A DNA stretch of 64,000 nucleotides, from assembly GCA_017632345.1 (NCBI GenBank), contig JAGBRL010000070.1:17036-81035 (forward strand), read 5' to 3'. The stretch comes from Paludibacteraceae bacterium. GTDB taxonomy: Bacteria; Bacteroidota; Bacteroidia; Bacteroidales; Paludibacteraceae. The position numbers and the translations under genes were made by a program. The notes beneath the pieces are model-generated. The model searched no databases. It saw nothing but the letters and a program-made list of their open reading frames with translations, and was not told the DNA's origin. Shown piece after piece: positions 35,579 to 63,300 of the stretch (its first letter is position 1; every line of letters starts with the position of its first letter).

Positions 35579-37219
35579 ATGGACTTAAAAAAATTTGCTC
35601 TATACATTACTCTGTCGGCAATAACAATCGCCAACACATTTGCAGGGACTAACATACTTGTAGGCAAAAGCAGCTCGGTTGACGGCTCCACGTTCTGCAC
35701 CTACTCGGCAGACTCGTACTACTTGTACGGAGAGCTGAGCCACTACCCTGCGTCAGAGTATTCAAAATACACCATGCTCGACATATACGGCTGGGACACT
35801 CGCAAATACCAAGGCAAGATAAAGCAAGTGCCGTTCACCTACGCCGTATTAGGCAACATGAACGAGCACCAAGTGTGCATAACAGAATCTACATTCGGCG
35901 GAAGAAAAGAGCTGATAGACTCAACCGGGATACTCGACTACGGCAACCTCATCACCATAACACTGCAGCGTTCAAAAACGGCGAAGGAGGCACTGCAGAC
36001 CATGACAGAGCTTGTAGAAGAGTACGGCTACTGCAGTTCGGGCGAAACATTCACAATTGCAGACCCTAACGAGATATGGATAATGGAGATGATAGGCAAA
36101 GGTCCGGACATAAAAGGAGCCGTCTGGGTGGCGGTGAAAATACCGGACGACTGTATCAGCGCTCACGCCAATCACTCCAGAATAACAACCTTCCCTCTAA
36201 ACGACAGGGCCAACTGCATGTATTCTAAAGATGTAATCTCTTTTGCAAAAGAGATGGGATACTACTAAGGGAAAAACAGAGACTTCAGTTTCTCAGACGC
36301 ATACGACCCGATGTCTTTCACCGCGCGCAGGTTCTGCGACTCTCGCGTGTGGAGCGTGTTCCGCAAACTTGCCCCCGACATGGACAAATACGCAGACTAC
36401 ATACTAGGCAAGTCCGACGAGCGCCTGCCGCTTTACGTGAAGCCGGAAAAAAAGATTTCCATGCAGGAGCTAAAAAACTTGATGCGCGACCATTTCGAAG
36501 ACACTCCGTTGTCCATGACAAAAGACCCCGGAGCAGAGCCGTTTGACGCGGCATTCCGTTACGCTCCGCGCGAATGGACTATCGACGGAGCGACCTATTT
36601 CAACGAGAACCCCATCGCAGGCCCGCAAAACGCATTCTCATTCGTGGCCCAGATGCGCAACTGGCTGCCTAACATGGTTGGCGGCGTGTTATGGTTCGGC
36701 GTGGACGACGCGACATTCACCGTTTATGTGCCAATATACTGCGGCACAACAGAAATACCGGAATGCTTCAGAGCCGGCAACGGCAGCCTGCTGAAATTCT
36801 CTTGGACCTCAGCATACTGGGTTTTCAACTGGGTCTCAAATATGGCATACGCCAAGTATAACTACATGAGCGAAGATATTAAAAAGGTACAGCAAGAGCT
36901 AGAGAAGAAATTCGAAGACAACTACGAAGTAATCGAAGTTGCGGCAAAATCTCTATACACAAAATCTCCTGAATACGCAAGCCGGTTTCTTACGGAATAC
37001 TCCACAAACCAGTCTCTTATCGTAATCGAGCAATGGAAAGCTTTGGGCGAGTTCCTTATGGTAAAATATACCGACGGAAACATTAAACAAGAACGCAAAG
37101 GCAAATTTATAGACAACGGCTGGGGCGTTCCTGAAAACATCCAAAGGCCAGGATATTCAGAATGGTTTTACCGCCAAATCATAAACGAAACGGGCAACAA
37201 ATACAAGATGCCTGAATAA
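35579..37219 (+). pseudogene. C69-family dipeptidase, interrupted by an in-frame stop and lacking the catalytic Cys
   Basis: The frame from ATG 35579 gives 229 residues up to TAA 36266-36268, then continues open in the same frame to 37219, for about 546 codons, the length usual for C69 (PepD-like) dipeptidases of Bacteroidetes. The two parts join without a shift ('FAKEMGYY', stop, 'GKNRDFSFSDAYDPMSF'). C69 enzymes are N-terminal nucleophile hydrolases: after the signal peptide the family reads 'CTxxxVGKxAsxDGST'. Here it reads 'GTNILVGKSSSVDGST', so the nucleophile Cys is Gly (codon 35645-35647). Both changes point to loss of function. Signal peptide is present. A sequence error could explain the stop but not the Gly. 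Confidence 0.78.
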
Positions 37220-37264: not shown

Positions 37265-37300
37265 GGCGAATGGGCTCTTATTCATTCGCCATACTTTTAT
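37265..37300 (+). terminator. Terminator of the C69-type gene
   Basis: GGCGAATG (37265-37272) and CATTCGCC (37283-37290) form an 8-bp stem with a 10-base loop and a modest T-rich tail. Confidence 0.65.
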
Positions 37301-37331: not shown

Positions 37332-37619
37332 CCACTTTTAAGGAATACAATCCTTAAAATATGCCACTTTTGAGGATTTAACTCCGTAAAATCAGCCACT
37401 TTTGAGGAATACAATCCTTAAAATACGCTACTTTTAAGGATTCAACTCCGTAAAATCAGCCACTTTTGAGGAATACAATCCTTAAAATATGTCACTTTTA
37501 AGGATTCAACTCCGTAAAATCAGCTACTTTTAAGGAATACAATCCTTAAAATATGCCACTTTTGAGGATTTAACTCCGCAAAATTAGCCACTTTTAAGGA
37601 ATACACTCCTTAAAAACGG
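37332..37619. repeat. Tandem array of nine 32-bp dyad repeats, two alternating types
   Basis: Nine units of exactly 32 bp with no spacers, starting at 37332, 37364, 37396, 37428, 37460, 37492, 37524, 37556 and 37588. Odd units (type A) contain the dyad TTTTRAGGA, six bases, TCCTTAAAA. Even units (type B) contain TTTTRAGGA, six bases, TCCGTAAAA with one mismatch in the arms. The true period is thus 64 bp in A-B pairs. The last unit differs most. 32 bp is three helical turns, so all dyads would face the same side of the DNA. The array stops eight bases before the -33 element of the AAA/DUF4143 gene. Confidence 0.92.
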
Positions 37620-37626
37620 CAAAATA

Positions 37627-37658
37627 TTTGGAATGCAACACAAAAAAACATACCTTTG
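37627..37658 (+). promoter_or_regulatory. Near-consensus promoter of the AAA/DUF4143 gene
   Basis: TTTG (37627-37630), exactly 20 bases, then TACCTTTG (37651-37658), both perfect matches. Leader about 20 bases. This is the best promoter in the window. Confidence 0.75.
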
Positions 37659-37683: not shown

Positions 37684-38832
37684 ATGATAAACCGAATACT
37701 AGCAGACAACATAAAAAAACAGCTTTTCCAATCAAAAGCAATAATACTAATGGGTTGCCGCCAAATAGGCAAGACCACACTATTAGAAAAACTGTTCAAA
37801 AACGACGAAGCCACACTTTGGCTTAACGGCGACGACTTTGACGTGCGCGCGATGTTCGACAAACCATCAGCCGACAGGCTAAGAAGCCTGATAGGAAACA
37901 AAAAAGTCATCATTATAGACGAAGCGCAACGCATAACAGACATCGGCGTAAAACTAAAGCTCATAACAGACCAAATAAAAGACGTGCAGTTAATAGCAAC
38001 CGGAAGTTCCTCTTTCGACCTGAGCAACGAAATAAACGAACCGTTAACAGGCCGCAAAAGAGAATTTCAGCTATACCCTTTGTCTTTTGCGGAAATGGTC
38101 GGGCACCACGGGCTGCTCACAGAAAAAAGGCTGCTGCCGCACAGGCTGATATACGGATACTACCCCGCCGTTGTCACTGCAAATGGCGACGAAAAGGTAA
38201 CGCTTAAGGAACTGGCTGACAGCTATCTATACAAAGACATCCTAAGATTCGGGATAATAAAAAAGTCCGAAAAGATAACAAAACTGCTTCAAGCCCTGGC
38301 TTATCAGATAGGCTCTCAAGTATCATACAACGAACTTGCGCAGCTTGTGGGCATAGACTCAAAAACAGTAGAGTCTTACATAACGATTTTAGAAAAATCG
38401 TACATAATATTCCGCCTGAACTGCTTCAGCAGAAATCTCATAAACGAGCTGAAGAGCACCCGTAAAATATATTTTTACGACAACGGAATACGCAATGCCC
38501 TCATCGCCAACTTCGCGCAGCCGGAAATGCGCGCCGACATGGGCTGCTTATGGGAGAACTTCATCATCAGCGAAAGGATAAAACGCAACACATACCAGAA
38601 CGTATGGGCGAACAAATACTTCTGGAGGACAAAATACCAGCAAGAGATTGACTATATTGAAGAGAGCGACGGCAAACTTTACGCTTACGAATTCAAATAC
38701 AACACAAACAAAAAAGTCAATATGCCAAAATCGTTTTCCGAATCATACCCGGACGCAACGTTTCAGATCATAACGCCAGACAACATCGAAGATTTCGTGC
38801 TGCAGGCAACCCCACAAGACCCAGCTGTCTAA
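37684..38832 (+). CDS. AAA_14/DUF4143 ATP-binding protein
   Basis: 382 residues. Walker A is 'MGCRQIGKTTLLEKLF' (Lys30, Thr31), Walker B 'KVIIIDEAQRI' (Asp79, Glu80), then a sensor-like 'IATGSSSFDLSNEINEPLTGRKREFQLYPLSFAEM' typical of AAA_14. A winged-helix region ('YNELAQLVGIDSKTVESYITILEKSYIIFRL') follows. The C-terminal DUF4143 region has a PD-(D/E)XK nuclease-like pattern: 'FWRTKYQQEIDYIEESDGKLYAYEFKYN' (E-x-D and E-x-K). The family is found in many copies in gut Bacteroidales; its role is unknown, with proposals linking it to DNA or mobile elements. Here it sits behind the dyad array and its own strong promoter, and ends in a terminator. Confidence 0.88.
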   Translation: MINRILADNIKKQLFQSKAIILMGCRQIGKTTLLEKLFKNDEATLWLNGDDFDVRAMFDKPSADRLRSLIGNKKVIIIDEAQRITDIGVKLKLITDQIKDVQLIATGSSSFDLSNEINEPLTGRKREFQLYPLSFAEMVGHHGLLTEKRLLPHRLIYGYYPAVVTANGDEKVTLKELADSYLYKDILRFGIIKKSEKITKLLQALAYQIGSQVSYNELAQLVGIDSKTVESYITILEKSYIIFRLNCFSRNLINELKSTRKIYFYDNGIRNALIANFAQPEMRADMGCLWENFIISERIKRNTYQNVWANKYFWRTKYQQEIDYIEESDGKLYAYEFKYNTNKKVNMPKSFSESYPDATFQIITPDNIEDFVLQATPQDPAV

Positions 38833-45367: not shown

Positions 45368-48300
45368 TTATCTTACAATGGTTACCATTCCTTTTCTTTC
45401 TCCCTTTTTACTCAAAGTAGCTGAGTTATTGCCATACTTGACAGTCCAGCCATACACACCCGTAGGACAAGGTTCACCTTTATAGTTACCATCCCACTTA
45501 TCATCTATACTCTTACCTTCAAATATCACTTCACCCATACGGTTATAAATTATGAACGTGAACTCTTCGATAAAGTCACCTCCATGGAAATAGAACTCAT
45601 CATTTCTCTTGTCACCATTAGGAGTGAACGCTTCAGCAGCCCAGAAATCTCTCCATTTGTAAACCCATCCGGAACCGTCCTGGATACAGCCATGTTCGTC
45701 AACGCTTCTAACCTTAACCTCGAACGAATCTTTAAGAGGCAAGTCATACTTGTAAGTAACAACGTTTTTATCTGCACTACCTACAGTAATAGGTTCCAAA
45801 TCTTCGCCAGGAGTCCAAGTCCAAACCGCATTTTCATGATCTGGAACTTTTCCGCTGAAACGAACAGAAGGATTATCATTATCAATGCAGTTAGGATTGA
45901 TAACGAACTGCATAGGTTCAAGTTCACGCTGAGCGATAGTCTTTGTATCCGAAGCCTGACAACCCTTTTCATCAGTACCGACCACGGTAACAACAACATC
46001 TTCACCTTCGTTAAGAACAGCCCAGAAGTTCGTTTTGTCTGAGTTGTAGATGTCGATATCCGCAACAGCAGGAACACTGCTCCATTCGTAAGAAACTGCA
46101 CCTGTAGCGCTGAAATGAACGGTGTCTGGCTGACCAGGACAAACCATATTGTTATCTTTATTTGTTTCCATTTCTACCTTTGGAGGTTCTACAACAAGAA
46201 CTGTTCTCTTGACTGTAGAGTCGCAACCATGTTCATTAGTAGCGGTAACAGTGTAATAAGTTGACTTATTAGGAGCGACTTCTATCACCTTTTCTGTTTC
46301 GCCCGTGCTCCATTCAAACGTTACGCCAGCACCAGCCGTTGCGCGAAGTTCGCCAACAGAACCGCGACAAATGAATTCCGGCATATCAACTTCCAAGTTA
46401 GGAACTGCATTAACCATTATCGGAATTTCTCTTTCAGCTTTACAGTTAGACATATAGCCTTCAAGTATCAACTTAGTTTCAACATCCGGCTTGAATGTGT
46501 AACGAGCCTTGTCAGAAAGAAGATTTCCGTCAACATCTCTCCAATTGTACTTGCTTGCGCCATCAGCAAGAAGGCTTACTTCATCGCCAAGACACACAAC
46601 AGTATCGCCATGGAAGCTCAACTCTGGTATTTCAGTCACATTAACTGTAAACTCAGCCTTAGTCACGCAACCGTTAACATCGATACCCTCTGCAGTGAAC
46701 GTAGTCTTTTCGCTCACATGAGGCTTAATGTTTTCGCCCACGTTTCCGTTGCTCCAGTTGAATGCAGTGAAGCCTTCAGCATCCACAACATAAACTTCAG
46801 CCTGAGAACCAGCGCATACATTAGACGTACCAGCAAGATTCAAAGGAGTTCTCTGATTAACAACAACCGGAATCTCCATAGAAGTCACACAACCGTTTCC
46901 GTCTTTACCTGTCAACGTGTAAGTTGCAGACACAAGAGGTTTAGCCTCCATCTTATCACCCTTGTCGCCGTTGCTCCATGAGAATGTGCAACCTTCAGGA
47001 GCGCTATGTCCGAACAATATCAAAGAATCGCCAGAACAAATTTCGCTATCTCCGCTGTACGACAAAGAAGGAAGCATATTAACAGAAACCTCAATGTCAA
47101 AAGAGTCCACACAATTATTGTTAGAAGTACCGATTACACGGTAAATAGTATCCTGTTCAGGAGTATGTCTGTAACGGTTACCCGCAACCAAACTTCCGTC
47201 AGGCTGTTTCCAACCGTATGTAGCAGCACCAAACACGGTGATGTCAGCCTCTTCACCATCGCAAAGAATAAGTTTGCTACCCTCTGCAACACCAAGCACA
47301 GGAAGCGGCTTAACCTTAACCTTAACCACAGCTTCTGCATCACAACCAGTTTCCACAACCTTACCTTTGACAGTAAACGAAGTGTCTGACGTGATTATAG
47401 GTCTTACTGTAGTTTCAGAAGAGCTCAGTTCCACCCATTCGTAAGCCGCAGCACCAACAGCAGTAAGTTCAGCTTCAGAACCGAAACAGATGTTTCTTTC
47501 ACCTTCAACCTTGATTGTCGGCTTCGGATTAACTGTCACCGGAATTTCCAAAGTATTCTTACAGAAGATCTGATCTCCGTTATCGTCAAGAAGCACAACC
47601 GAACCAGACAAATAGATATTCTGGCTTGACAGCGGAGTCATGCTCATCATTTCGCCATTTTCCCCAGTCACTGTACCTGTGCTCCAAGTGAACTCAACCT
47701 TATCTTCTTCGTTCACATTAGTAGCCTTAGCAGTAAGTTCAAGCACTTCGCCCTGACATATTGGCTTCAAGCCTTCTGTATGAAGGATTGGAGGAGTCTG
47801 AACAGACAACGGCACGTGGATAGTGTCAGTACATCCGTTAAGAGTACCGGACATCACAAGCACCTCGTCAGTAGCAGCCTCGAACGAAATCTGGTCGCCC
47901 ACCTTAGCAGTGTCATTACCATAATAACCGTTTTCATCCATGAACCAAGCGTAAGTGTTAGCTCCCTGTCCATGCAAAGAGAACACGCCGCCCTTACAGA
48001 TTTCCTTAGTTCCGCGAACGTACAACTTAGGAAGAGCCTTAGGCTTAACAGTGAACGAAGCCTCAGCAGGACAGTTCAAGCTTGTGTAACCAGTTACCTT
48101 CAAAGTGTAATCTTCTTCAGTCATAGTCAAATCGCCAGAAGTTGCTTCTGTAGAGTGATTAGACCAAGCGAAGCTTTCAAAATTATCTTTAGTGTCATCA
48201 GTAACCTTCATCTGGAAATCTTCTCCCACACAAGCGAATGTAGGAGCGTCAATCTTGATTGTAGGAGTAGGCAACACTTTGACATTGATAGCCTGAGTTG

Positions 48301-51300
48301 TCTTACAACCATTAGCGCCAGTACCAGTTACAGTATAATGAGTGCTTCTAGTAGGCACCACAGTCAATCTGTCAGTAGTGCTTCCGCCTGTCCACTGATA
48401 AGTGTCAGCACCCTTCATTGTGATATCCAAAGTCTGCTTCTGACAAAGCAAGATAGAGTCTGCTGTTTCGTTCAGCTCATATTCACCTTCCCAGAACAAG
48501 ATTGGAGCCTCTTTCGCAGTGATGTCAACATCCAACGAAGAAACACAACCCTCTTTAGATTTACCCCACAACGTGTAAGTAGTGTTACCGTTCAGTTTAG
48601 TAGTTGCAAGATTACCCATAGCGATAGTATCCTTGCCGACAGACCACGCATAGTAGTCACCGCCACCAACACCAGTACCTGAACCTCTCAACGTTGCAGT
48701 GTTACCGTCGCAGAACTCAGTATCGCCGTTATAAGCAAGTACCGGAAGCTCTACCATTGTAACCTTGAACGAAACTTCGCTTTCACAACCGTTAGCATCC
48801 TTACCAACTACAGTGAACACAGAGTCTTTCGTGATAGTAGCTCTGATAGTGTCCTTACGCGAGCCTGTGCTCCACTTGTAAGATTCAGCACCAGTAACGT
48901 GCAATTCTGCAACCTCTCTGTAACAGATTCTGTCCTGATCTTTTTCGATGTCGATAGCAACTTCAGGCAGTGTGTTCATCTTGAACGTGAACTCTTCCTG
49001 AACAGAACAACCATTGTCACCTTCACCAGTAATGAAGTATGTCATAAGTCCATCAGCCTCTTCATCTACATAAGTCGCACCATTAGTACCCTTAGTTCCG
49101 TCAGGCATAGTGTAAGAGACTGCGTTACCGCCAACAACAAGTTTCACAGGCGAACCTTCGCAGTAAGCCAGTTCTCCATCTGGATGATTTGTCAAATAAA
49201 TCACAGGTGAAGGAATTGTCTTTACTGGAATTTCTAGTGTGCTAACACAACCTTCAGAAGAAGCCCCAGACACTTTATAAATAGTGTCACTGTCCGGCTT
49301 ATCTTTAATCCAGCCTCCGCTTATGACATTTCCTGCTTCATCTTTAATTGTAGAAGCTCCGCTTATACGAACATACAAATCATTCTTCATACAGATGTCA
49401 ACGATTTCCGGTGTTGCAGGATCGTTATCACTTCCCTGCGGATCAAACGTCAACACTGGCAAAGGATTCTTCGTCACTGAGAAGAATATAGTATCCACAC
49501 AACCGACAGTATCTTTCACCGACGCGAAGAAATCATCAACACCCGCTGTCTGAGCCAAAACATTCAGTTCTGTATCATAATCGATTGCAATTTTCGGATT
49601 TGCCTTATAGCCCCAATTATAGGTGTAATTACCTTCATCGTCCGCTGAATTAACGGCATAAGCCCTGATGTCAATTTCATCGTCAACACACACAACCTTA
49701 TCTCCGTCTACCGCAAATTTTGGTTTTGCAGTGTAAGTGATATCAGTGTATGTTTTAACAGTCTGGCAATTGTTCACAGTATCGATACCGACCAAGTCAA
49801 ACTTGTTATTTGGCGACGACAAAACTTCCACAATAAGATTCTTGCCTGTTTCCTGATCCTTCTCAATTTTGCGTCCTCTCCAATAGAATTCCACATTACT
49901 ATCGTTACAATGAGGTTCAAGCACAACTGGCGAACCTTCACAGACAGTCCTGTTGCCAACCAAATCGATGGATGGATTTGCCTTATGGCTAACAACGATA
50001 GTGCGCGAAGTTTCACAGCCTGGCATATAACCTTTAACGACGAACGTAGCCGCTGTTGTTATGACCGAATCCAGAGCAGAAACAGTAGTATCTACAGCAT
50101 CTCTATGATCCCATTTGTAAGTGTTGCTTCCGCTAACCACCAAATTCAGATCACCTCCGTTACAAACATCCAAATAAGCAATGCCATTTTCATTGAACTC
50201 AAGCTGCCCACTCTTAGGATTTCCAAAATCCACATTCATATTCACGTCAAGACTTGGCGAATTCAGCAATTTCACAAAATGCTCTACATCTTTCTTACAT
50301 CCATAGATGTTTGTCGCAGACAATTTGTAAGTCACATCTTGCGTAACAGAAACCTGCACTTCGTTGCCAGACCTGTTGAACGGATAACTAGAATTATCAG
50401 TCCAAATCAAAGATGTAATATCTTCATCTTCAGTCACAGCCTTCAAAGTCAGAACTCCGTCCATACAAGCTTTGTCACCTCCGTCTATCTGGACACTCGG
50501 AGTCTTTTTCACAGGGATTACAAATACAGAATCTGCTCTACACTCCACATCATCCATCTTCTTGTATCCAGTCAATTCTATTCTTATCGAACTCGCATTC
50601 GCTCCAATAGCAACTTCAGCCTTATTGTCTGCGTCCTGCTGTGCCAACGCACCTTTCCACATATAACGGTCTGCTCCGTACGCCGTAAACAACTCTTTTG
50701 TATCCTGACAAGGAGTCAAATTACCTCCTATAGACAAGTTTGGCTTCGGAAGCACGTCAATGTCAATAGTTGCATGAGCCTGGCATCCTTGATCCGAATA
50801 CCCTGTTGCGGAGAACCTTCTTGAATATTTCATGTCTCCTTCGGTGTACTTCATCGCTGTATCTTTTCCATTCCAAACAATAGAACTGATAGCATCACTA
50901 TTCACCGCATCGTGCATCAACACGACATCACTGCCCTCACAAAATACATTAGTTCCTGTTTCTGTTGTAAGCTTAAACTTAGGAGTAGGAACACTTGTTA
51001 CCACTACGTCCGTTTTTTTAGAGCAAGTGTACTCATCAACACCTATAACAAACACTTTGAGATTCGAGTTACCAATCGCAGGCTGATAATTGCTTCCTCC
51101 AGCCACGTTGTTCACAGGATTTCCAGCGGCATCCTCGTAACCCCACACATAAGAGACAGCTCCTGTTGCGGTCAAATTTGCATAAGTGTTTTCACAGACT
51201 GTAAAATCTCCGCCAATAGCAACATTTGGCTCTTCCCTCAAAGTAACAGTTACAGTTTTGCTTGCATCACAATGTTCCTTTGTCGGGTCTGTCGCCTTGA

Positions 51301-54300
51301 CTGTATACTGAGCTCCATCTACCATAGGAACTACAGAGAGGTCCGGACCAGAAGCTGCTGCTCCTACCCACTCGTAAACCAAACCTTCGGTCTGAGATGT
51401 AGCCTGCAGATTCATTGTTGAGCCACGACACACCATTGTGTTACCAACAACACTAATAGCAGGAGCGCTGACAATATATACCGGAATAGTAAGTTTCTTA
51501 GTACATACGCCATAAGTACCTTCTACAGTATATGAAGTGTTAGACACCGGCGACACCTGCATCTGCGAAGATGTGTTTGTCGGGTCATCTTCCCACTTGT
51601 AATCTGTAGCTCCCTCAACCTTAAGCGTTACTGCCGAACCTTCACAAACCTTAGTGTTGACATCATCAGCCAGTTTAATGTCAAAGCCGTCAGGGTCCTG
51701 AGCCGTAATCATAACAGAGTCCTTAACAAAACAGTTGTTTGTGTCTCGACCTGTCACGAAAATCTTAGTGTCACCCATAATCAGACTACTGATAGAGTCG
51801 CCCTTTTCTCCTGTGCTCCAGATGAAATCCACATAAGGCTGCTTGCCGTTCAAGCTCACACCCTCAGCCTTAATCTTTGCATTGTCTCCAGCACAAACCT
51901 TGTTTTCGCCAAGCATATTAATTCTTGACTTAGGCAAAATCTTCACAGTAGCGCTCGCAGATGCCGTACATGTCTTTTCTGTGGTTCTATCAACAACCTT
52001 AGTGCCATGCACTGTATAATCGAAGGACACAGCAGCTGACTGAGGCTTAACCTTAACATAGTTATCTGTCAAGCCGTTGACATCTGCACCGCTCCACAAA
52101 TACGTTTCCGCACCTGAAGCAATCATCATCACATCCACATCCGGACAAGATGTTTCTGGAGCAGACAAGCTTACGTTAGGCGCTGCATACACCATCAAAT
52201 TCACAATCGTATCCGCCTCACAGATCAGAACCTCGCCGCTCGTAAACTGATGCACACCATAACCCTTTATCGCATACTCATTAACAGTACCGGCTACGTG
52301 ATCCATACCAATATTTAGCTGACCTCCGTTTACTGCCTCTGCATTCAGGTCATCATACATAGTACCCTTATTCCACCTATAAGCATTTGCTCCACCCAAG
52401 TTCAATGTCACAGACTCATTAGAACAAACCGAATCCGAAGGCGTGAATGATGCTGAAATTTTAGGTTTGCCAACAACTGTGATGTTAATCTCTTTAGTTG
52501 ACTTGCACACCGTATTTCCATCATACACCATGATACCCTCCAAATAATATTTGCCTGACTTAGCCGGAGTTACAGAAACTTCCGACCTATCACTGAACGG
52601 AATATACTCTTCGTTCAGCCACTGCCATTCCACATCATTCTGCAAGTCCAACGAATAAACTACAGCAGTCAGTTCAACAGATGAACCTTCGCAAATACTG
52701 TTAGATCTATCCTTCAATGTTAGATCTTTAGGTTCCAAACCTATTGCAGGACTGTCATAAATTTTATAATCCTTACTCAAAGTTTGTATACAGCCATCCA
52801 AAGTTGCAGTAACTTCCAGTTTCACCTGATCTCCAATCAAAGTGTAATCCAACTGGGCCGAGTTCTTTTTGCTTAGAGGAGCAGTCCAACTAATCTCAGC
52901 CCCATCAGATGAAAAAGCCTTAAAGACAACATCGGTGCCTTCGCAAAGGCCAACCATACGCCCTGTCTTTGGATCGTACGGACCATCAACCGTCAATTCT
53001 ATCGGAGCCTTCACTCCAACTGTGAATTCCTTAGATGCGTAACATCCGTTACCTCCTTGAACCGTAACAGTGTAAGTTGTATCTGACGAGCCTCTTACAA
53101 AATTATGCGATACAAAAGTACTCTGATCAGACCTCAGACTACCTGCCATAGTCCACTCTACATTTTTCAATCCACTAGTATTTGTTGACTTGACACTAAG
53201 ATTAGCCGCTTCTCCTTCACAAACCAGCACTTTTCCATAAGACGGACCAAAAATATCTGAACCTGCTTTGTCAAAAACTGAAAACTCAGGAGTTGCATTT
53301 CTCTTTATCGTCTTTTCTGCAACTTTAGAAACACAACCAGTTGAGACCATCCTTGCCGTCAAAGTGACCAGCACGTCACTTTCTATTTGTCCTAAAGCAG
53401 CAGTCTGAGCCGTTCCGCCTCCTTCAATCACACCTTCCCTGTCAAACTTCCATTCATATGCGATGTCTGAATTTTGAGAATCAGAACAGTCTGCATCATG
53501 ACAAGCCTTAAGACTCACTTGTTCATATTCATCACAAACAGCCTCCTTGCTTGCCGAAACATAGACAACTGGCGATGGCGTAGTTTTAAACGTAACGGTA
53601 GCCTTTGTCGGACATCCGTTTCCGTTGTCATCCCTAACTTCCACAGTGAAAGGATACAAACCTGAGCTTCCTCCGCTCAACGTCTGAACATAAGTTGCCT
53701 CTTTTGAACTCTGAGACCAAGAATACGTGTAGTTGCCAACACCTCCTGAAGCCGTTGCAGTAAGTTCCACAGACTCATTTTCACAAGCATCAACTACTCT
53801 GCCCTGCAAATTACCGCCTCGCTCAGGCTCTGAAATAGACACCATCGGCGCAGTCTTGACTTTCGCCGTCACTTCTTCTACATTAGAGTAACAAGCTCCT
53901 GGTTCTCCTGCCAAAGCCGAAATTCCCTGGAACTTGAAAATTTTGTCAGAATACAAAACTTCTCTATATTCATTACCAGTTACTGGAAAATCTCCTTCCG
54001 GAGCAACAACAACATAATACTGCGCACCTGTAAGTTGTATAACAGTTTCTGAACCAGGACAAACATCCGCAGGTGCAACAGCCACCACTTCCGGACGCTT
54101 ATCCACATTTACAGTAAAGACAGCTTCTGAAGATGTACATCCGTTAACGTCAGTAACCTTGACTCCGTACCTTTCGCTATAATACGAATTGCCGTTAAAC
54201 TTAGGATCGTCATTGTCCGCAAGTTTCACGTTCATATAAGACTGAGAAACGTTTTGTTGCACACCATTCAAAGTCCACGTGAAACTTTCCGGCTCCACAC

Positions 54301-57300
54301 CTCCGCCAAGTTCTGTCTCCAAAGTAACAGGAGACATTGGATCTGCACAATAACGGTGGCTATTTGCTTGGTCTCCGCTCGCTCCGTCAAAAACAGTAAT
54401 CGTAGGAGCCAAATTCACACTCACAAGCTGTTCTGCCGAACCTGCACATCCGTTATTATCCACAACCACCACTTTTACTGTATGGTCACTTACATTACTA
54501 AAGCTATATTCACTTGATGTTCCTACACCAAATCCCCAGTCATAACTTACCGCAGTCTGACCTGTTGTAATTTCCGCCTTCAGGACTATCGGCCCTTCAT
54601 TGCTACAACGTTCAAAATCACTTGCATTTCCGTTAGCATTTTTAATTTCAACTTTAGGCAACGGATTTACTGTCACAGACACTCGCTTGACATCTGTCAC
54701 ACAACCGTCATGAGACACGCCATAGACCTTATAATAGCTTGTTGTCTTAGCCGGATCCGGCTTGATCATAAACGAAGAATTACTTACCGTATCATCCGGG
54801 AAAAGCTTGTTTGCCTGGTCTTCATCAGCCCATCTGAATTCTTTGATATTCTGAGCATAACCTGTATTGTTTGCTCCTACCATATTGAATGTAGCAAACG
54901 AACCTGCACATGTTTTTGCATCAGCCACACTGAACGACGGCACTGGGTACGGAGTTACCGTAAATTCCGCAGAGCTACTGCAATAAGCGCCGTTACCATC
55001 CGGAATAGTCACTTCAACTTTATAATAGACAGTCTTGTTTTCTTCTGTCAATCTCTGCGAAATTTCATCTTTACCTTGGTCTATCGGAGCAGAGCCGTAC
55101 ACAGCCTTTCCGTTTGCGTCCAATTCGTCTCCTTTATACCAACGTATTGCTACTCCGTCCGCCATCTTAACAGTCGAATTCAATTTAAAGTTTGTGTTCA
55201 AACAAACTCCTGAAGGCCCCATAATTGTAACCGAAGGAGCAGTCACAGGATTCACAATATGTTCAATCTCTGTTATACATCCATTGCTTCCTGTAACCTG
55301 CAACTTAACCACATCACCTGCTTGCGGATTTTGCAATTCGTAAGTTTTGTCTTTTGCTGCCGCATCACCATTCCACACAAGTGTCGCGCCCTCTTCGTTT
55401 ACAGTTGCATTCAGCACTCCTGGCATGCCAGAACATACATTAGCAGTAATTACCGCTACCGGATTTGGCTTGCCCACATAAGAGATTTCCTTGCTGCTTA
55501 CACAAGCGTCCACCTCCGCCTCAACTATCAGACCTATCTCATTAGCGCTGTTCGGAGTCACTGTCAACGAATTGCCGTTCGCACCGTCCACCGACGTTCC
55601 GTCCCTCTTCTTCCATCTAAACGTAGTTTCGGCATTTGACTGTTTTTTATTACTTGCCACAAGAGTCATCGGTGTTCCGATACACTCTTCGAAAAATACG
55701 CCAGGTATGTTGTCAACTTCAACAACAATATCCGGATTAGCCAACACGTCAACTTTGAAATCTATAGTATCCGAGCAACCGTAAGTTTCGCTATAAGCCG
55801 CAACACCGTACATAGCTGAACTTGGGTTGAAAGTTGCTTCAAACGTTTCACCCTCATTCTTATACGAGTATTTCTTCTCGTCGTCCGATGTATTTGGCAT
55901 TCCGTCAGGTCCGTTCTCAACCACAACAGAGAACCATTTGTAATTGGCTATACTGCCTTCTGCTATTGTCGCGTTTGCCTTCACTTCAAAATCAGAGCCG
56001 GCACAACCAGACGGCTGATCTTCTATTGACACTATTGGATTAGGATGAACTACAACGTTATGAGTAGCCTCTTCTGACCAGCATCCGTTAGCATTCTTAA
56101 CCTTAACTTTATAAATCTTAGAATCGTTTACAGCACAAAGAATGTCTTTGGTTTTCTCAGAAGTGCTCCATTCATAAACATCATCACCTACTCCGCCATT
56201 CCAAAGTTCAGACGCTTGCAGACCTACTGCAGACAACGTCACAGTCTCTCCCTTACAAATGTCAGACACGCCAGATGTCTTCTTGCTGCTTGCAATGCTC
56301 ACGCTGAACGGACGTTCTACGTTTACAGTGACAGTAGAAGTCACAGCCGAACAGCCCTTCTTAGCCACTGCCGTAACAGTGTAAGTAGCAGTCTTATCCG
56401 CTATAATGCTTTCTGTTTGCGTTTTACCGCCAAACAAGCCATCTACCGTAGCCACAACATTGCCGGCGTGGTCTGTAACTGTATAAGTCACCACATCCGA
56501 GTAGTTGCTTCTTGACTCGTCGAACTCCAAGAAGAACTCTTCATTTGGACACAGTTTGGCATTTCCAATATCAGAACCGTCGTTCTTCTTCGCCACAACT
56601 GTGAATGTTGGCTTGTGAATCACGTCAACTTCAACCTTCTTAGAAGATACGCAATACATACTTGCATTGTAAGATGTGTTCTTATAACAAGCGTACACAT
56701 CAAACGCCAGTTTGTTATTTACAACATCACTTTCAGAGAACAAACTTTCCAGAGACACAGGGTCCTTGCTGCCGTTGTTCAAAGAAGTAAAGTTGTTAGT
56801 CAAACTATACAATAAACTAGAATTCTGAGTATCGTACCATCCGCCATCCTTGACTTTAGACGCTGTGAACTTAACGTTTGCTCCGTCGTCTTCAAGACAA
56901 ACTGGACTTTCAGGCTCTACATTAAAGTTTGGTGCAGGATGGAAATAAACAGTATGAGACGCTGTTTGCGTACATCCATATGTATCCGTCACTTTTATCT
57001 TATAAACAACTGTCGTTCTCTCTTTAGAATTTGGATCTGGAGAACGCGGATTCAGAACGATATTCTGATGGTCATTTCCTTTTTGTGTGCCAGCCTCAAA
57101 TTCCCAAGACTTTATTGTTTCACTAGCATTAACACACTTGATTGGCAACTCTCCAGCAAAATCACTACATACAAAAGAGTAATTACATTCTGGTTGATAA
57201 TTACCTGTCGTGAAAACTGTAGGTGCATCTTTAACTATTACCTTAAATTTATGGTATGCCACGCAACTGTCATTAGTAATCGCTCTGATTTCATACTCAT

Positions 57301-60300
57301 GAGTTTTGTCTGCATTTAAAGTAAACGTGTAATAATTATCATACGTCTGCGGATTTTTCCCCCATGTGTACAAACTTCCAGGAGTCAAACGGCTTAACTG
57401 ATATATTGTTGACTTCGCACCTGACGTGTTTCTTATTTTCAACTTAACGGTCGAATTTTTACAAACAGGTCCATACGCGTCACCGTTTGCAATAGTTATA
57501 GATTCGTCTGTTGCATCAACAAGTTCCAGCACCGGAGTATTAGACATGTTCACTGCCACTTTCTGAGAAGAGAAACAGCCTGCGTCTTCCGCTTCAATTT
57601 CGTAAACAGTGTTCTGTCCGATAAACGGAGTTTTGTAGATGTAGTAAGTTCTGTCAATAGTTCCTGTCACTACACCATTTTCATCTGTCACATTTTCCGT
57701 TTTCACGAACTCTGTCTCTACAACCTTCTGCGACGCCTGAATTCTGTTTCCATCAGCATCCAGCGTGTAGGCTTTATAGATGTAATTGTTCTGCATGTTG
57801 TTGCCGTCTGACACCATGATTGTGTCAAGACAGTTTTCACACACAGGATCCAAAGTAGCCCATGCCGTGAACGACGGCGATTTAACAACAGAAACTTTCA
57901 AAGTAGTCTGCTCGCTCTGGCAACCATTTTCAGTGACAACAAGGTAGAACTCGTTGTTTTCGCCTTCTTTGAAAACAGGAGTCACACTCATTGTCGCTTC
58001 TGTGCTTGAAGAACCTATGTTAGATGTCCACGAATAAGAGTCCGCTCCATAAGCGCTGCTCAAAGTCAACTGTGTATTTTCACAGACTTCATAAACACCA
58101 TCTGCTCCTGTCCTCACATTGCCAGAAACCAATATTCTCGCAACCGGACGAGGAGCGATTTTCACCTCTGTCTTTGACGAGCCGCCACATTCGCCACCAA
58201 CGACCTTCCATGAGAAGTTTACAACGTCTGCAGAGTTGTTTACCGGAGAGAAAGGACCTATCACAACATTTCCGTTTGCAGGAACAGCTTCCAATTTCGA
58301 ATCCGTCTTAACTTCTCCGTTAATATCCAAATCAACATCAATCATTTCGCCTGTGGCTCCTGTCAGCTGACTTGCCACTTTCAAATAATATTTCGAATAA
58401 TCACATATCGGACCATTCGCAGGATTCTGATTTTCATCCAAAACCTCTACCGTAACGACAGGCACCGGTTTGGATGTGACTGTTACTTGTTTTTCAACAA
58501 AACAGAACTTGTCAGAGGTATTGGACCAATACGTAGGTTTTGCCCCATAATAAGAATTACCAGCACGCACATCCAATGTAACATTACTTCCCATCAAATC
58601 GCCAGTAACCACTCTTGATGCCGTCTTTGGCGATGACGTGTTGTCTCTGCCATCTTGCCAAGATACATCTTCCCAATTGCCAGTTGTTGCGTTCTTTGAA
58701 TAGTAATATGTATGCACTCTATCCGACGTACCAATCAGCTCAACTTGCAGCGCTTCATTTTCGCACAGTTCCGAAGGCTTCGCAACAACTTCAAACTCAG
58801 GCTTTCTCACGTTATATATTTTCTGAGTTTCTTCTGTACGTTTACATCCCTGCGCTGTCGTTATCGTAGCTTTATACGTACGATAATCAGAACCTTCAAC
58901 AAAAACTACAGTTCCTGACAATTCTCCTTTTTCTGCATCAAAGACTTGACTTCCCACTGTTCCAGCTGTCCACTGTATATATTGAGTTGTTTTATCAAAT
59001 TCAGCACCAGTTGTCGGATTAGTAGCATTCACGGCCTTAATTTCTATAGGCCCAGCAGTTCCATCCTTGTAAGACGATCCATCCTCACAAACAAAGTTTC
59101 TGACATAATCAAACGATAGCATAGGACGTGGATTAATTTCAACTATCAACGTTCTTTCCACTCTACATCCTTCGCTTGTTTCCATCACAATGGAGAACTC
59201 TTCCTTCTGGCCTTTTATAACAACATCTATTGCTGTAAAAGCTCCAACGTCAACTCTCTGTCCAAAACTAGCAGAAGAGCTCTTTACTGTTCCATCTCTC
59301 TTACGCGTTACTGTTGCCTTGTATTTGCCGGCATAAACCGCGTTCGCGTCTCTCAAGACCATCTCCATATTAAGCCAGAAGTTCGTCCCTGCACAAACAC
59401 TGTACACTCCATTTACTGGCAAATTATCCACAACCGGAGACTGACTTGTACGAATAGCATCTACTTTTATATCAAACTCAGGATAAGCCGACACAGTAAC
59501 ATCCAATGTGCCAACACAGCCATTAGATGCCATAGCCGCCACCTTTACTGTCTGAGGATTGGTTGCTGTTGCTGTAACTTCCACATCTTTTTTATAACCT
59601 TCATCACTGACATCAAACGCACCATTTTCCCAAGAATATCCCTTTGTAATCTGCGTATTATTGTAATTGTGCTTGTGACTTCCACCATACAAATCTTTAG
59701 CTTCCAATGTAACGTACGTAGGTTTGCCTACAGGATTGCCAGCGGCATCAGTTTCTCTTGGACAGCCAGTCACATCAGGCACAACAAACTTAGGAAGAGG
59801 CTTCACCCAAATCTCCTTTGAACTAACACCAATACAACCTTTTTCATCTTCCACACGAACAGCATACTTATATGAGTACAAATCATAGCCTTTGTTGTAA
59901 CTATTTCCGTTCTCTCCTACCGTGTAATAAATAGAGTTTGCTGTTGTTCCGTTTTCCTGATCTCCGAGCATTCCGTTACCAAGATTTTGATATGGTGTCT
60001 TGGTAGGGTCATACCATGTATATGAAACAACATTCCCGTCAGATAATCCAGAAGCCGTAAGTTTTACAGCAGAACCAACACAAGCCTGATCTGTACTTGA
60101 AGAAGCTTCGCTTCCATCAACAGAGACGTTCCATGTCACAGTCGGAGTCTGACGCGACTGAATTTTGATAGTATAAACATCTTCACATATAACAGTCTTG
60201 GCGTCATCAAATGTATGTGTTGTCACGACAAGCGTATATTCGTCTGTAGTTGCGTAACTTGCATTCGGCAGCAAATCTCGTTGATAACTTGTTCCCCCTG

Positions 60301-63300
60301 GCTGATAATTTGTTCTCCAGACATTTTCATCTTTACCCTCCACAATACCTGTATTCTTGTACCAAGTATAGTGCATATAGCAATTCTTAGCCCCTACATT
60401 AGGATTTTTAACTGCAACATTAACTCTATTGTTATTAAAGTCAGCATTATAACCACAAAGAGGGCTACATGTAAATGTCTTAGTCGTGGCATCATATTTC
60501 ACTTCCATAGGATCTCCAGTCTTAGATTCATTAGGGACTATTATAAAATCCTTCTTGGGACTACCATCCGCATTCGCTGGCACACTCTGTTTGAACGTGA
60601 ACGTAAAGTCCGGTCTTGCTGCTGGACGTTCTTCAAACATGAATGGTATATTGAAGTTACAACCTTTGTCGTCTGTTCCTTTCACATAATATTGAGAAGT
60701 GAAATCGGCTTCGCCCAACGCAAACTCGTATTCGCCGGCAGCTAACTGCTCTTCTTTTTGAATTGCATTGCCTTGGTCGTCTATTGCGCTAACAAGCTTA
60801 CCCCACTCTACATAACCTTTCTCTATGTTCACTAAAGACGCCTCTACCGGACCGGGAGCACAAACAGCCGGACCCACTTCCAACTTAACATCCTGCGACC
60901 CTTCTACAACAGACACATAAATCCTTGACGTACAATTCCCATTGCTCATATCTACCGAATGAGTACCCTTGGCAAGTGTCTTGTTATTAGTTTCATAAGA
61001 GCCGTTAAGGATATTAGAATAAGACATGTCGTCTGTTGCTCCGTCTGACCATGTCAAACCATACTTGCCATCACACTCCAAATGCAAAGTGACACTCTTG
61101 TCCTTACAAACACCAACCTGCCACTCGCTATATCTGATAGTTGCAGTCTCCGTCTTCATTACACCTTCTTTAACCCTGGTCAAGCCCACGTTGTCAGTTG
61201 CTATCGGAAGAGCATTCGGCACTTCATAGACTTCATACTCCGTATTTACGTTATATATGCAGTAATTTTCTTTGCCGGACTCGTCTTCCCACGTGTCCTT
61301 CACAAGAAACTTTCTTACAATATTCCCAGCCCTTACAGCTTCCGGATCTATATCTACCTGCGTTCCTCCTTCCATACGAGACACCCAAGTTGCACCTTCG
61401 TCGAAAGAGTATGAAATATTATTCTTCAGATAGTACAAATAATCATTTCTCAGATAATCACTTGCGTTAAAACCTTCAGCCTTAACTTGATCCTCAGTCG
61501 GACGACCTACACCCGGTTTGAAATAAGCGTCGTCCAAGTTCTGCCAGTCTGCATAATTTACCGGCACATTCTTCACAGTCCCAAATACCGGACTATATAG
61601 ACAAGCATTCTTTATCACAACAGTATTCACCGGCACAAAACGAGGCACGATTTTCTTACAGATCAGACCCTCGCAACCTGAAACTGTTTTAACTTCCATC
61701 ACAACCCACTGGCCTTCTGCATCAAGAACACTTCCGTAATTTCTTTTTGAACTACTTTGGAAGTCAGCCCGATCTCCTTTTGCATCTTGAAACAAGAACC
61801 TGCCGTCTGCATCTTTGTCCACTGCATAATAAACGGCATTAGAAGCACTTTGCTTGACACCGTCTATAACTGGATCGGCCCCTGCCGGGAACACAGTCCA
61901 GTTCCAGATGACAACAGAATCGCTTGCTCCAGAACCGCTGGCAGACTCTGATGTAGATGCATCAACAAAATCCACATAACGGTTACAACCATATTTAGGT
62001 GTGAAATTAGGCCGCAAATCTGTAGGCGATATTATTGTATCCAACTCAATAGGGCAACCTGTAGAGTTCATCTTCATTGTCACATGGAAATGGTTGTTAC
62101 TTGAACCGACAGAACCGGCACCTAGTTCCCACTTATTACCTTTAATATCATCATTAGACTGCATTGTCGCACTCCAAACGTCCGTTTCGCCCATTTGATA
62201 CCAAGTGTAGGAGTCATAACCAGCAGGAGCTGTAATAGTCACAGGCTCGTTTGACTTACAAAACTCTACATCTATTTTTAGAGGCTTAACCTCTGCACGG
62301 AAGTACATGTAGCATGCGTGACCGCCTGCATCACTCACAGAACCATAGCAACAGTCTGTAACGTAAGCTTGAAGTCGAATCTTTTTACCCCTATACTTAT
62401 ACTCTCCTTTTGTGTCCTTTTCCGTCAAATCAAATGCAACACTTTCCCAATTCGTTGTAACAACATCATCGTTTGTAGAACCCTTTTTGTTATCACACCT
62501 CAACATATCATCTGTATTTTTGACCGTAGCTCCACATGTTATAGCATTCCATTTTGAAGAAACTTCATCATAACATTCTGCCTTTATGTAGTAAAGAGGC
62601 TTTGCAACTACGCCACCTCCAGAATGTCCACTTGGATTCATCGCAATAGCACAATAATCAACAATCAACATACCCATCTGCTCTGTACACACAAACTCAT
62701 ACTCCATCATTTCAGCACTTGCGACATGCTTCTCCAATATATCGTTATCCCCTTTTAGCCCTTGCTCTTTTCCATAATACTGCAACTCACAACCTCGTCC
62801 TGATTTTATACCATGATTAGTTCCCAATCTACAAGTTCTTGCAAATCCACCAGTCACATCTATTCTTGTATCTTTACAATTGTTATTCTGAACAGACGTA
62901 CTTCCTGGTATAGAGTTGCCCACCCCAAAGTTTATATCATTTTCGGGCGTTGAACCTTTGGTATATACGTTAAATCTTCTATATGGTGCATTATTTGCCC
63001 CATCTCCTTTCCACGCATCAAAAGAGCTCCAATAATAATCTCCTGACCCATAGACACAATTTTCTCCTTCTTCCGACCCACTAGCACCTCCTGAGAAAAT
63101 GTCTGCAATCTTAAAGGTCATATCACTACCTTTAAGATTATCCCGTTGTCCATTAGACCCATACCCTGTTTTAAACTGATGTTCTGCAGACTTAACGTTA
63201 GCCGTAATTGCACCTGCGTCAACAGCTTGATCATAATTCCAACAAAACTGGTGCGTTTGGATATCACCACCATACTTTACCACCCCATGATAAAGTTTCC

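Follow-up and report, generated by a model that had tools for sequence, protein, structure and literature searches.

The question raised by this locus is what a tandem array of 32-bp dyads does upstream of the gene for a putative ATPase-nuclease. The locus lies in a 64,000-nucleotide stretch (hereafter, the window) of contig JAGBRL010000070.1 from a Paludibacteraceae bacterium. The product of the gene matches PDC-S01, a single-gene phage-defence candidate of PADLOC with the architecture AAA_14-DUF4143 (COG1373). From sequence comparisons and a structural model, we consider it probable (roughly 0.8) that the array is a cooperative self-operator of the PDC-S01 gene, read by the winged helix of the ATPase-nuclease itself. 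The features involved are listed in Table 1.

Table 1. Positions of the array, the predicted promoter and the parts of the PDC-S01 gene in the window
Feature	Position	Strand	Basis
Hairpin GGCGAATG/CATTCGCC, 3′ of the upstream peptidase gene	37265..37290	+	Sequence, by eye
Predicted self-operator array of nine 32-bp dyads in tandem, with A and B units in alternation	37332..37619	.	Repeat finding and reading by eye
Degenerate tenth unit, in exact register with the other nine and across the predicted promoter	37620..37651	.	GGA spacing
-33 box TTTG, Bacteroidota-type, within the tenth unit (predicted)	37627..37630	+	TTTG-N20-TACCTTTG
-7 box TACCTTTG (predicted)	37651..37658	+	20 bp after TTTG
PDC-S01 gene, AAA_14 ATPase - winged helix - DUF4143, 382 aa	37684..38832	+	Pfam, PADLOC, model
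Predicted recognition helix SKTVESYITILEK, codons 226-238	38359..38397	+	DSSP on model, translation
Predicted nuclease motif D323 ... E336-x-K338	38650..38697	+	Translation, conservation

Tandem Repeats Finder reported a single array in the 64-kb window, at 37332-37615. At a period of 32 it contained 8.9 copies with 73% match, and at a period of 64 it contained 4.4 copies with 92% match. The latter value bears out the 64-bp higher-order period of alternating A and B units that had been noticed in the original prediction. As the 64-bp period fits better than the 32-bp period, the array probably grew through duplication of A+B pairs. The A units read CTTTTRAGGA-N6-TCCTTAAAA and the B units CTTTTRAGGA-N6-TCCG(T/C)AAAA. 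Nine exact units without spacers had also been described. The 32-bp period is indeed exact and free of spacers, but the units differ from one another and the tenth, degenerate unit was overlooked. Its GGA (37630-37632) lies 32 bp past the GGA of unit 9 (37598-37600). Likewise, the AAGGA arm ascribed to all odd units does not hold for A units 3 and 5, which have GAGGA instead. Among the 33 upstream regions of window open reading frames of at least 200 aa, only that of the array reached a self-match score of 16. The array unit, with up to three mismatches, occurs nine times in the 2.82-Mb genome, every time in the array. No tRNAs were found in the window. The hairpin that precedes the array, judged from its sequence, is likely the terminator of the upstream Peptidase C69 gene (35525-37219). 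This gene has one in-frame stop (36266-36268) with homology on both sides of it, and is either a pseudogene or the victim of an assembly error. Farther downstream, the minus strand carries one open reading frame of 6028 aa (45368-63454), which by eye looks like a surface protein of repetitive sequence whose C terminus is gliding/type IX-like.

In the window protein, AAA_14 and DUF4143 both exceed their Pfam cut-offs. Residues 1-372 align with positions 1-373 of the 375 positions in the PADLOC PDC-S01 model PDLC04789 (E = 4e-167). This full-length match, together with the fusion of an AAA ATPase to a PD-(D/E)XK-type domain, places the gene in PDC-S01, and its product is a candidate anti-phage protein. 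Residue D323 of the predicted nuclease motif was invariant in 75 of 75 rows, where E336 and K338 were conserved at 90% or above; all three were invariant in 17 of 17 rows. The AlphaFold model of the protein had a pLDDT of 89.8. DSSP assigned helices to residues 195-207, 215-222 and 226-238 and strands to residues 242-247 and 260-264; in the model, residues 195-264 look like a helix-turn-helix with a wing, that is, a winged helix. Residue 227 (Lys; codon at 38362-38364) comes second in the third helix, which is the predicted recognition helix. Structural neighbours of the model included DNA-bound Cdc6/Orc1, and a profile search of PDB sequences gave no match at E 0.01. NLR/CED-4 proteins were also matched, the winged helix of which is not known to read DNA.

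The original prediction proposed to look for the 32-bp unit in related genomes. Since the exact 32-mer is absent from relatives, such a search would find nothing; it is the architecture that is shared. The exact degenerate version of the unit had no match in the genome contigs database. At up to two mismatches, a scattered match occurred in seven of 100 other relatives, compared with nine for a reversed control pattern. A DNA search of 200 same-family genomes, including the source genome, gave matches at E 0.01 in 36 of them, and the top three matches outside the source genome, in other genera, were 32-bp dyad sites adjoining AAA_14-DUF4143 genes. The anticipated repeated association with AAA_14/DUF4143 genes was therefore found, and with it came a period that tracks the protein group, a register with the promoter and a recognition-helix residue that tracks the repeat letters.

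In the first genome samples, a self-match of at least 16 was present upstream of 43 of 96 DUF4143 genes. The lags were 32 (22 genes), 33 (10), 23 (4), 22 (2), 34 (2), and 64, 51 and 14 (one each), so that 38 of the 43 were at lag 22, 23, 32 or 33. Comparatively, score 16 was reached downstream in 7 of 95 cases, within the gene in none of 99, and in none of the 96 shuffled upstream regions, which shows that the array is not a product of chance. The TetR control genes had such matches upstream in one of 29 cases (lag 14) and downstream in three of 28 (lags 14, 19 and 36). Arrays were unevenly distributed, with 19 in 30 relatives of the window protein, seven in 22 genes of the same-family DUF4143 sample and four in 29 of the phylum-wide sample. 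In the best-scoring DUF4143 group (L092-L105, L107, L121-L134), just one of 28 had an array. Four loci (L031, L068, L070 and L079) had arrays on both sides of the gene. The source genome itself had 13 DUF4143 matches, one of them nearly without upstream DNA and one a fragment. Among the remaining 11 genes, eight had an upstream array with a period of 22, 23, 32 or 33 and three had none. These eight arrays all differ in sequence; that of the window scores best at 64. The seven other array-bearing paralogues also match PADLOC PDC-S01 models.

We found that the period varied with the protein group. In the window group (the best 80 of 568 relatives from the genome contigs database), 43 of 45 arrays had lag 32 at score 16. 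Relatives of the 430-aa paralogue from the source genome, sampled across the order, had lag 23 in 22 of 22 arrays at score 14 (27 tested), and those of the 458-aa paralogue had lag 33 in 19 of 24 (29 tested); the corresponding counts at score 16 were 20 of 20 and 17 of 21. By eye, the 22/23-bp and 33-bp arrays looked more like direct repeats than dyads. Among relatives of the window protein that included some more distant ones (L063-L091; 30 tested), 12 arrays were at lag 32 and seven at lag 33. The period is not strictly set by closeness to the window protein.

The rules were found on earlier sets (96 upstream regions, the nearest 80 loci and 63 arrays) and were then tested on a held-out set. 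The latter comprised 28 loci from one set and 100 of 120 further listed matches, eight of the 20 omitted being already in use. Removal of eight duplicates from these 128 loci left 120 genes, 117 of which had enough upstream DNA. Sixty of the 117 had arrays: 48 at lag 32, two at 64, one at 33, one at 65 and eight at unrelated lags. As the held-out genes are relatives from the same subfamily, this test depends on ancestry. In total, 119 of 236 window-subfamily genes had no lag-32 array at score 16. The 117 lag-32 arrays had two units in 76 cases, three in 36 and seven or more in three, and the array of the window was the longest of them all. Many relatives are metagenome bins with possibly wrong organism labels (e.g. 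the L262 contig, labelled Lokiarchaeota).

Plasmids and viral contigs also carry relatives of the gene. Eight plasmid loci were obtained from 495 records. Lag 32 was found in two of them (Bacteroides uniformis and Treponema saccharophilum), lag 33 in one (B. finegoldii) and lag 23 in one (Sinorhizobium chiapasense), and four had no array at score 16. The 23-bp locus of S. chiapasense (L362) and the 32-bp locus of T. saccharophilum (L357) are in complete plasmid records from outside Bacteroidota. Seven of 30 viral loci reached score 16, at lags 22, 32, 33 and 66 and, in three cases, 59-60. In three viral contigs (L328, L330 and L339), ATPase relatives at 26-30% identity are preceded by 59-60 bp self-matches near TATAAT-like promoters, which are possibly another lattice class. 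A search for consensus dyads in viral contigs gave three single sites, with no ATPase relative in the stretches covered. One GGA dyad (L492:8062-8087) lies beside a tRNA-like sequence (by eye), with no ATPase relative in the 11.8 kb covered, and is either a decoy or a chance occurrence.

A predicted promoter overlaps the gene-side end of the array. We take TTTG-N20-TACCTTTG to be a -33/-7 promoter of the Bacteroidota type. The dyad centre of unit 9 is 47 bp upstream of the predicted -7 box. When upstream regions of the window group were aligned on TAnnTTTG, which was present in 81 of 119, the dyad centres lay 16, 48 and 80 bp before this -7 box. The left arm of the last dyad contains the -33 TTTG, and its right arm finishes near the -7 box. 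With the same anchor, 47 of 63 dyad centres were at phase 16-17 of 32; in the held-out genes, 68 of 82 were at phase 14-17. The nearest dyad was phased (R = 0.80, mean 16.0 of 32) in the 105 genes that had both a box and a dyad. Of 237 genes, 171 had a TAnnTTTG at 14-60 bp before the start, taken as the first ATG by guess, as did 13 of 30 TetR controls and, after shuffling, 8 of 237 sequences. It is the register rather than the TAnnTTTG box itself that is informative. The sites thus overlap or abut the predicted promoter boxes in a fixed register, as in an autoregulatory array. As the array lies upstream of and across the predicted promoter, and not within the transcript, an operator is favoured and RNA-based readings are disfavoured.

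We also asked which part of the protein varies with the repeats. Repeat similarity tracked protein similarity (Mantel r = 0.41, P = 0.0005) in 63 arrays, a set from which L069 was excluded for a repeat that is far upstream and barely a dyad. Common ancestry accounts in part for this co-variation. In a scan of 339 alignment columns for repeat similarity beyond overall identity, residue 227 ranked top (r = 0.519), followed by a column at 0.323. The winged-helix region as a whole was not enriched in the top 30 columns (5 versus a null mean of 6.3); the signal of the scan is that of one residue. K227 accompanied GGA-N6-TCC, Q/E227 accompanied CGA-N6-TCG and N227 accompanied TGA-N6-TCA. These pairings agree with the textbook contacts Lys-G, Glu-C and Asn-A. 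In the held-out genes, the GGA dyad was found in 26 of 29 genes with K227 and in 5 of 89 others (P = 6e-18). The respective frequencies were 9/33 and 3/85 for Q/E227 and the CGA dyad (P = 5e-4) and 12/18 and 13/100 for N227 and the TGA dyad (P = 5e-6). Outside the 63-array set, 14 of 18 K227 genes had at least one GGA dyad and four had none.

Independent pairs were then drawn from a 230-row tree built without the residue 227 column. For K227, eight pairs gave 6.9 concordant and 0.0 opposite dyads (median P = 0.016), and with the 112 rows that had a single dyad class, 7.6 of 8 pairs were concordant (P = 0.008). The tests for N/TGA (4.2 to 0.4) and Q/E/CGA (2.5 to 0.3) went in the right direction without reaching significance. 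For K, a previous test on 117 rows lacked power, with four pairs and a median P of 0.5. When the columns of the 23-bp and 33-bp subfamilies were scanned, none stood out clearly, the highest r being 0.26 and 0.30, respectively. The top column of the 33-bp scan (n = 24) aligns with residue 232 of the recognition helix. Because both the spacing and the letters of the repeats track the protein among many relatives, we predict that the protein binds its own repeats.

It seems that the PDC-S01 protein would bind to every 32-bp dyad with its own winged helix, by way of the recognition helix. As 32 bp is about three turns, dimers would lie side by side on one face of the DNA, and the protein would fill the lattice cooperatively, in keeping with the guess of the original prediction that a dimeric protein binds here in a cooperative manner. 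Once bound, the protein would sit over the promoter that is predicted in the last unit of the array. The likely effect is that the protein turns its own gene down, i.e. repression and not activation. The nine or ten units of the window array might give a sharper or deeper response; most array-bearing relatives have two or three. As a guess, some trigger such as an infecting phage or an ATPase ligand might free the protein or start the nuclease. The gene appears to stand alone, as the commonest neighbour family was seen at 4 of the 80 loci. Between the window and eight relatives with 57-65% identity, no other gene was common within flanks of 1.5-2.5 kb. A more ambitious idea, which we regard as rather doubtful, is a two-part element made up of a STAND-like ATPase-nuclease and its own DNA lattice. 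The protein would be stored inactive while it shuts the promoter, and an invader signal would free the active nuclease. The lattice period would be set by the subfamily (22, 23, 32 or 33 bp), and the array length would serve as both store and threshold.

Other functions of the array have to be weighed against a self-operator. The dyads could be operators for a host transcription factor that is encoded elsewhere and controls the PDC-S01 gene, and the promoter register would be compatible with any regulator. However, the seven further PDC-S01 genes in this genome are preceded by arrays that differ in sequence (periods 22, 23, 32, 33), and the window unit occurs at no second genomic place. The repeat letters track a residue of the gene's own product, and arrays adjoin the gene in distant organisms that share no neighbour (bin labels are possibly wrong). 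We consider a host factor unlikely. Slightly more unlikely still is an array that serves the nuclease chiefly as a docking site, a store or a target, for licensing, partition or gene mobility, with promoter control being secondary. The conserved PD-(D/E)XK residues, the four loci with arrays flanking the gene, the occurrence of the gene in unrelated neighbourhoods and on plasmids, and the length of some arrays, which seems beyond the needs of simple repression, would all suit such a site. It is at odds with the rarity of downstream self-matches (7/95 versus 43/96 upstream) and with the locking of the dyads to the promoter. One search for an empty site found none: the neighbouring barrel-protein gene was present in five other genomes of 80, with different flanks.

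The array might also act as RNA. It could serve as a leader or repeat antitoxin of the kind found in type III toxin-antitoxin systems (ToxIN), or it could be a guide precursor. In ToxIN, a tandem array stands before the toxin gene, and here too a tandem array precedes the gene for a possibly toxic protein. In addition, R opposite T in the window could pair as A-U or G-U. Nevertheless, G-T mismatches were not clearly above A-C (16 to 10). The predicted -7 box at the gene-side end (a box found in 171/237 genes) would leave the array upstream of the transcript; a second promoter may lie upstream of the array. No Rfam match at gathering score was found within the window, and both Pfam and the fold search identified the protein as an AAA ATPase. 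An RNA role is highly improbable in our judgement. As for ToxIN itself, no ToxN-family endoribonuclease lies downstream: the domains detected by Pfam are AAA_14 and DUF4143, with none from a toxin family. If the array were a dispersed repeat or neutral minisatellite that came here by chance, this would agree with the 64-bp period, which suggests tandem duplication of pairs, and with the absence of the exact unit from the relatives searched. Such an origin can hardly be reconciled with the recurring period, the promoter register and the protein co-variation across genera, and we give it next to no credence. The original prediction had already set aside a CRISPR and a coding repeat. For CRISPR this was right, as there are no spacers and the 64-bp period consists of two 32-bp halves that each represent a version of the same dyad. 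A CRISPR, an RNA antitoxin and a dispersed repeat are all disfavoured as readings of the array. As for an iteron origin, the window protein is not a Rep by Pfam, and its fold resembles Cdc6/Orc1.

How does a self-operator compare with known systems? The closest solved structures are those of the archaeal AAA+ ATPases SSO1545 (2fna) and PABY2304 (2qen), with 14-19% identity to the window protein; we know of no function and no DNA site for either of them. Cdc6/Orc1 initiators on origin DNA (2qby) have a similar fold. They function at origins and are not known to have a nuclease domain or a promoter-locked array. In mycobacteria, IniR has an AAA+ domain predicted to be SSO1545-like, and it binds and controls a promoter (PMC5760070). 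IniR consists of 818 residues, its DNA-binding domain is a distinct one at the C terminus, and it is the activator of another operon; unlike for the window protein, no nuclease domain is named in the available text (PMC5760070).

PDC-S01 is described as ranking fourth among the most common defences of prokaryotes as a whole, and as the fusion of an ATPase with a PD-(D/E)XK member; most candidates of this sort still await validation (PMC12988326). The main text of that paper mentions no operator, tandem repeat, direct repeat or promoter (PMC12988326). We found no ligand or mechanism of PDC-S01 in the literature searched. Titles and abstracts gave no report of arrays or operators at DUF4143/AAA_14/PDC-S01 genes, most subscription journals being outside this reach. 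The present analysis would supply PDC-S01 with a DNA ligand and an operator, both of them predicted, together with a three-way code and a residue that is a candidate for recognition. The recurring period and the promoter register also make up a sequence rule by which PDC-S01 members can be found and sorted. If our interpretation is true, a nuclease effector would be its own sequence-specific regulator.

A further likeness is RptR, which represses a type I restriction/DarTG2 defence island through repeated palindromes that overlap the promoter (PMC12255303). RptR, however, is a repressor protein of its own, 9 kDa in size, and has three sites of 6 bp (PMC12255303), whereas for PDC-S01 the ATPase-nuclease is the predicted reader of 32-bp dyads, which come in arrays of 2 to 10 units. 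RptR is thus a known case of a repressor that acts on the promoter repeats of a defence island, and the putative self-operator array of PDC-S01 seems to be new, as far as the literature found can tell.
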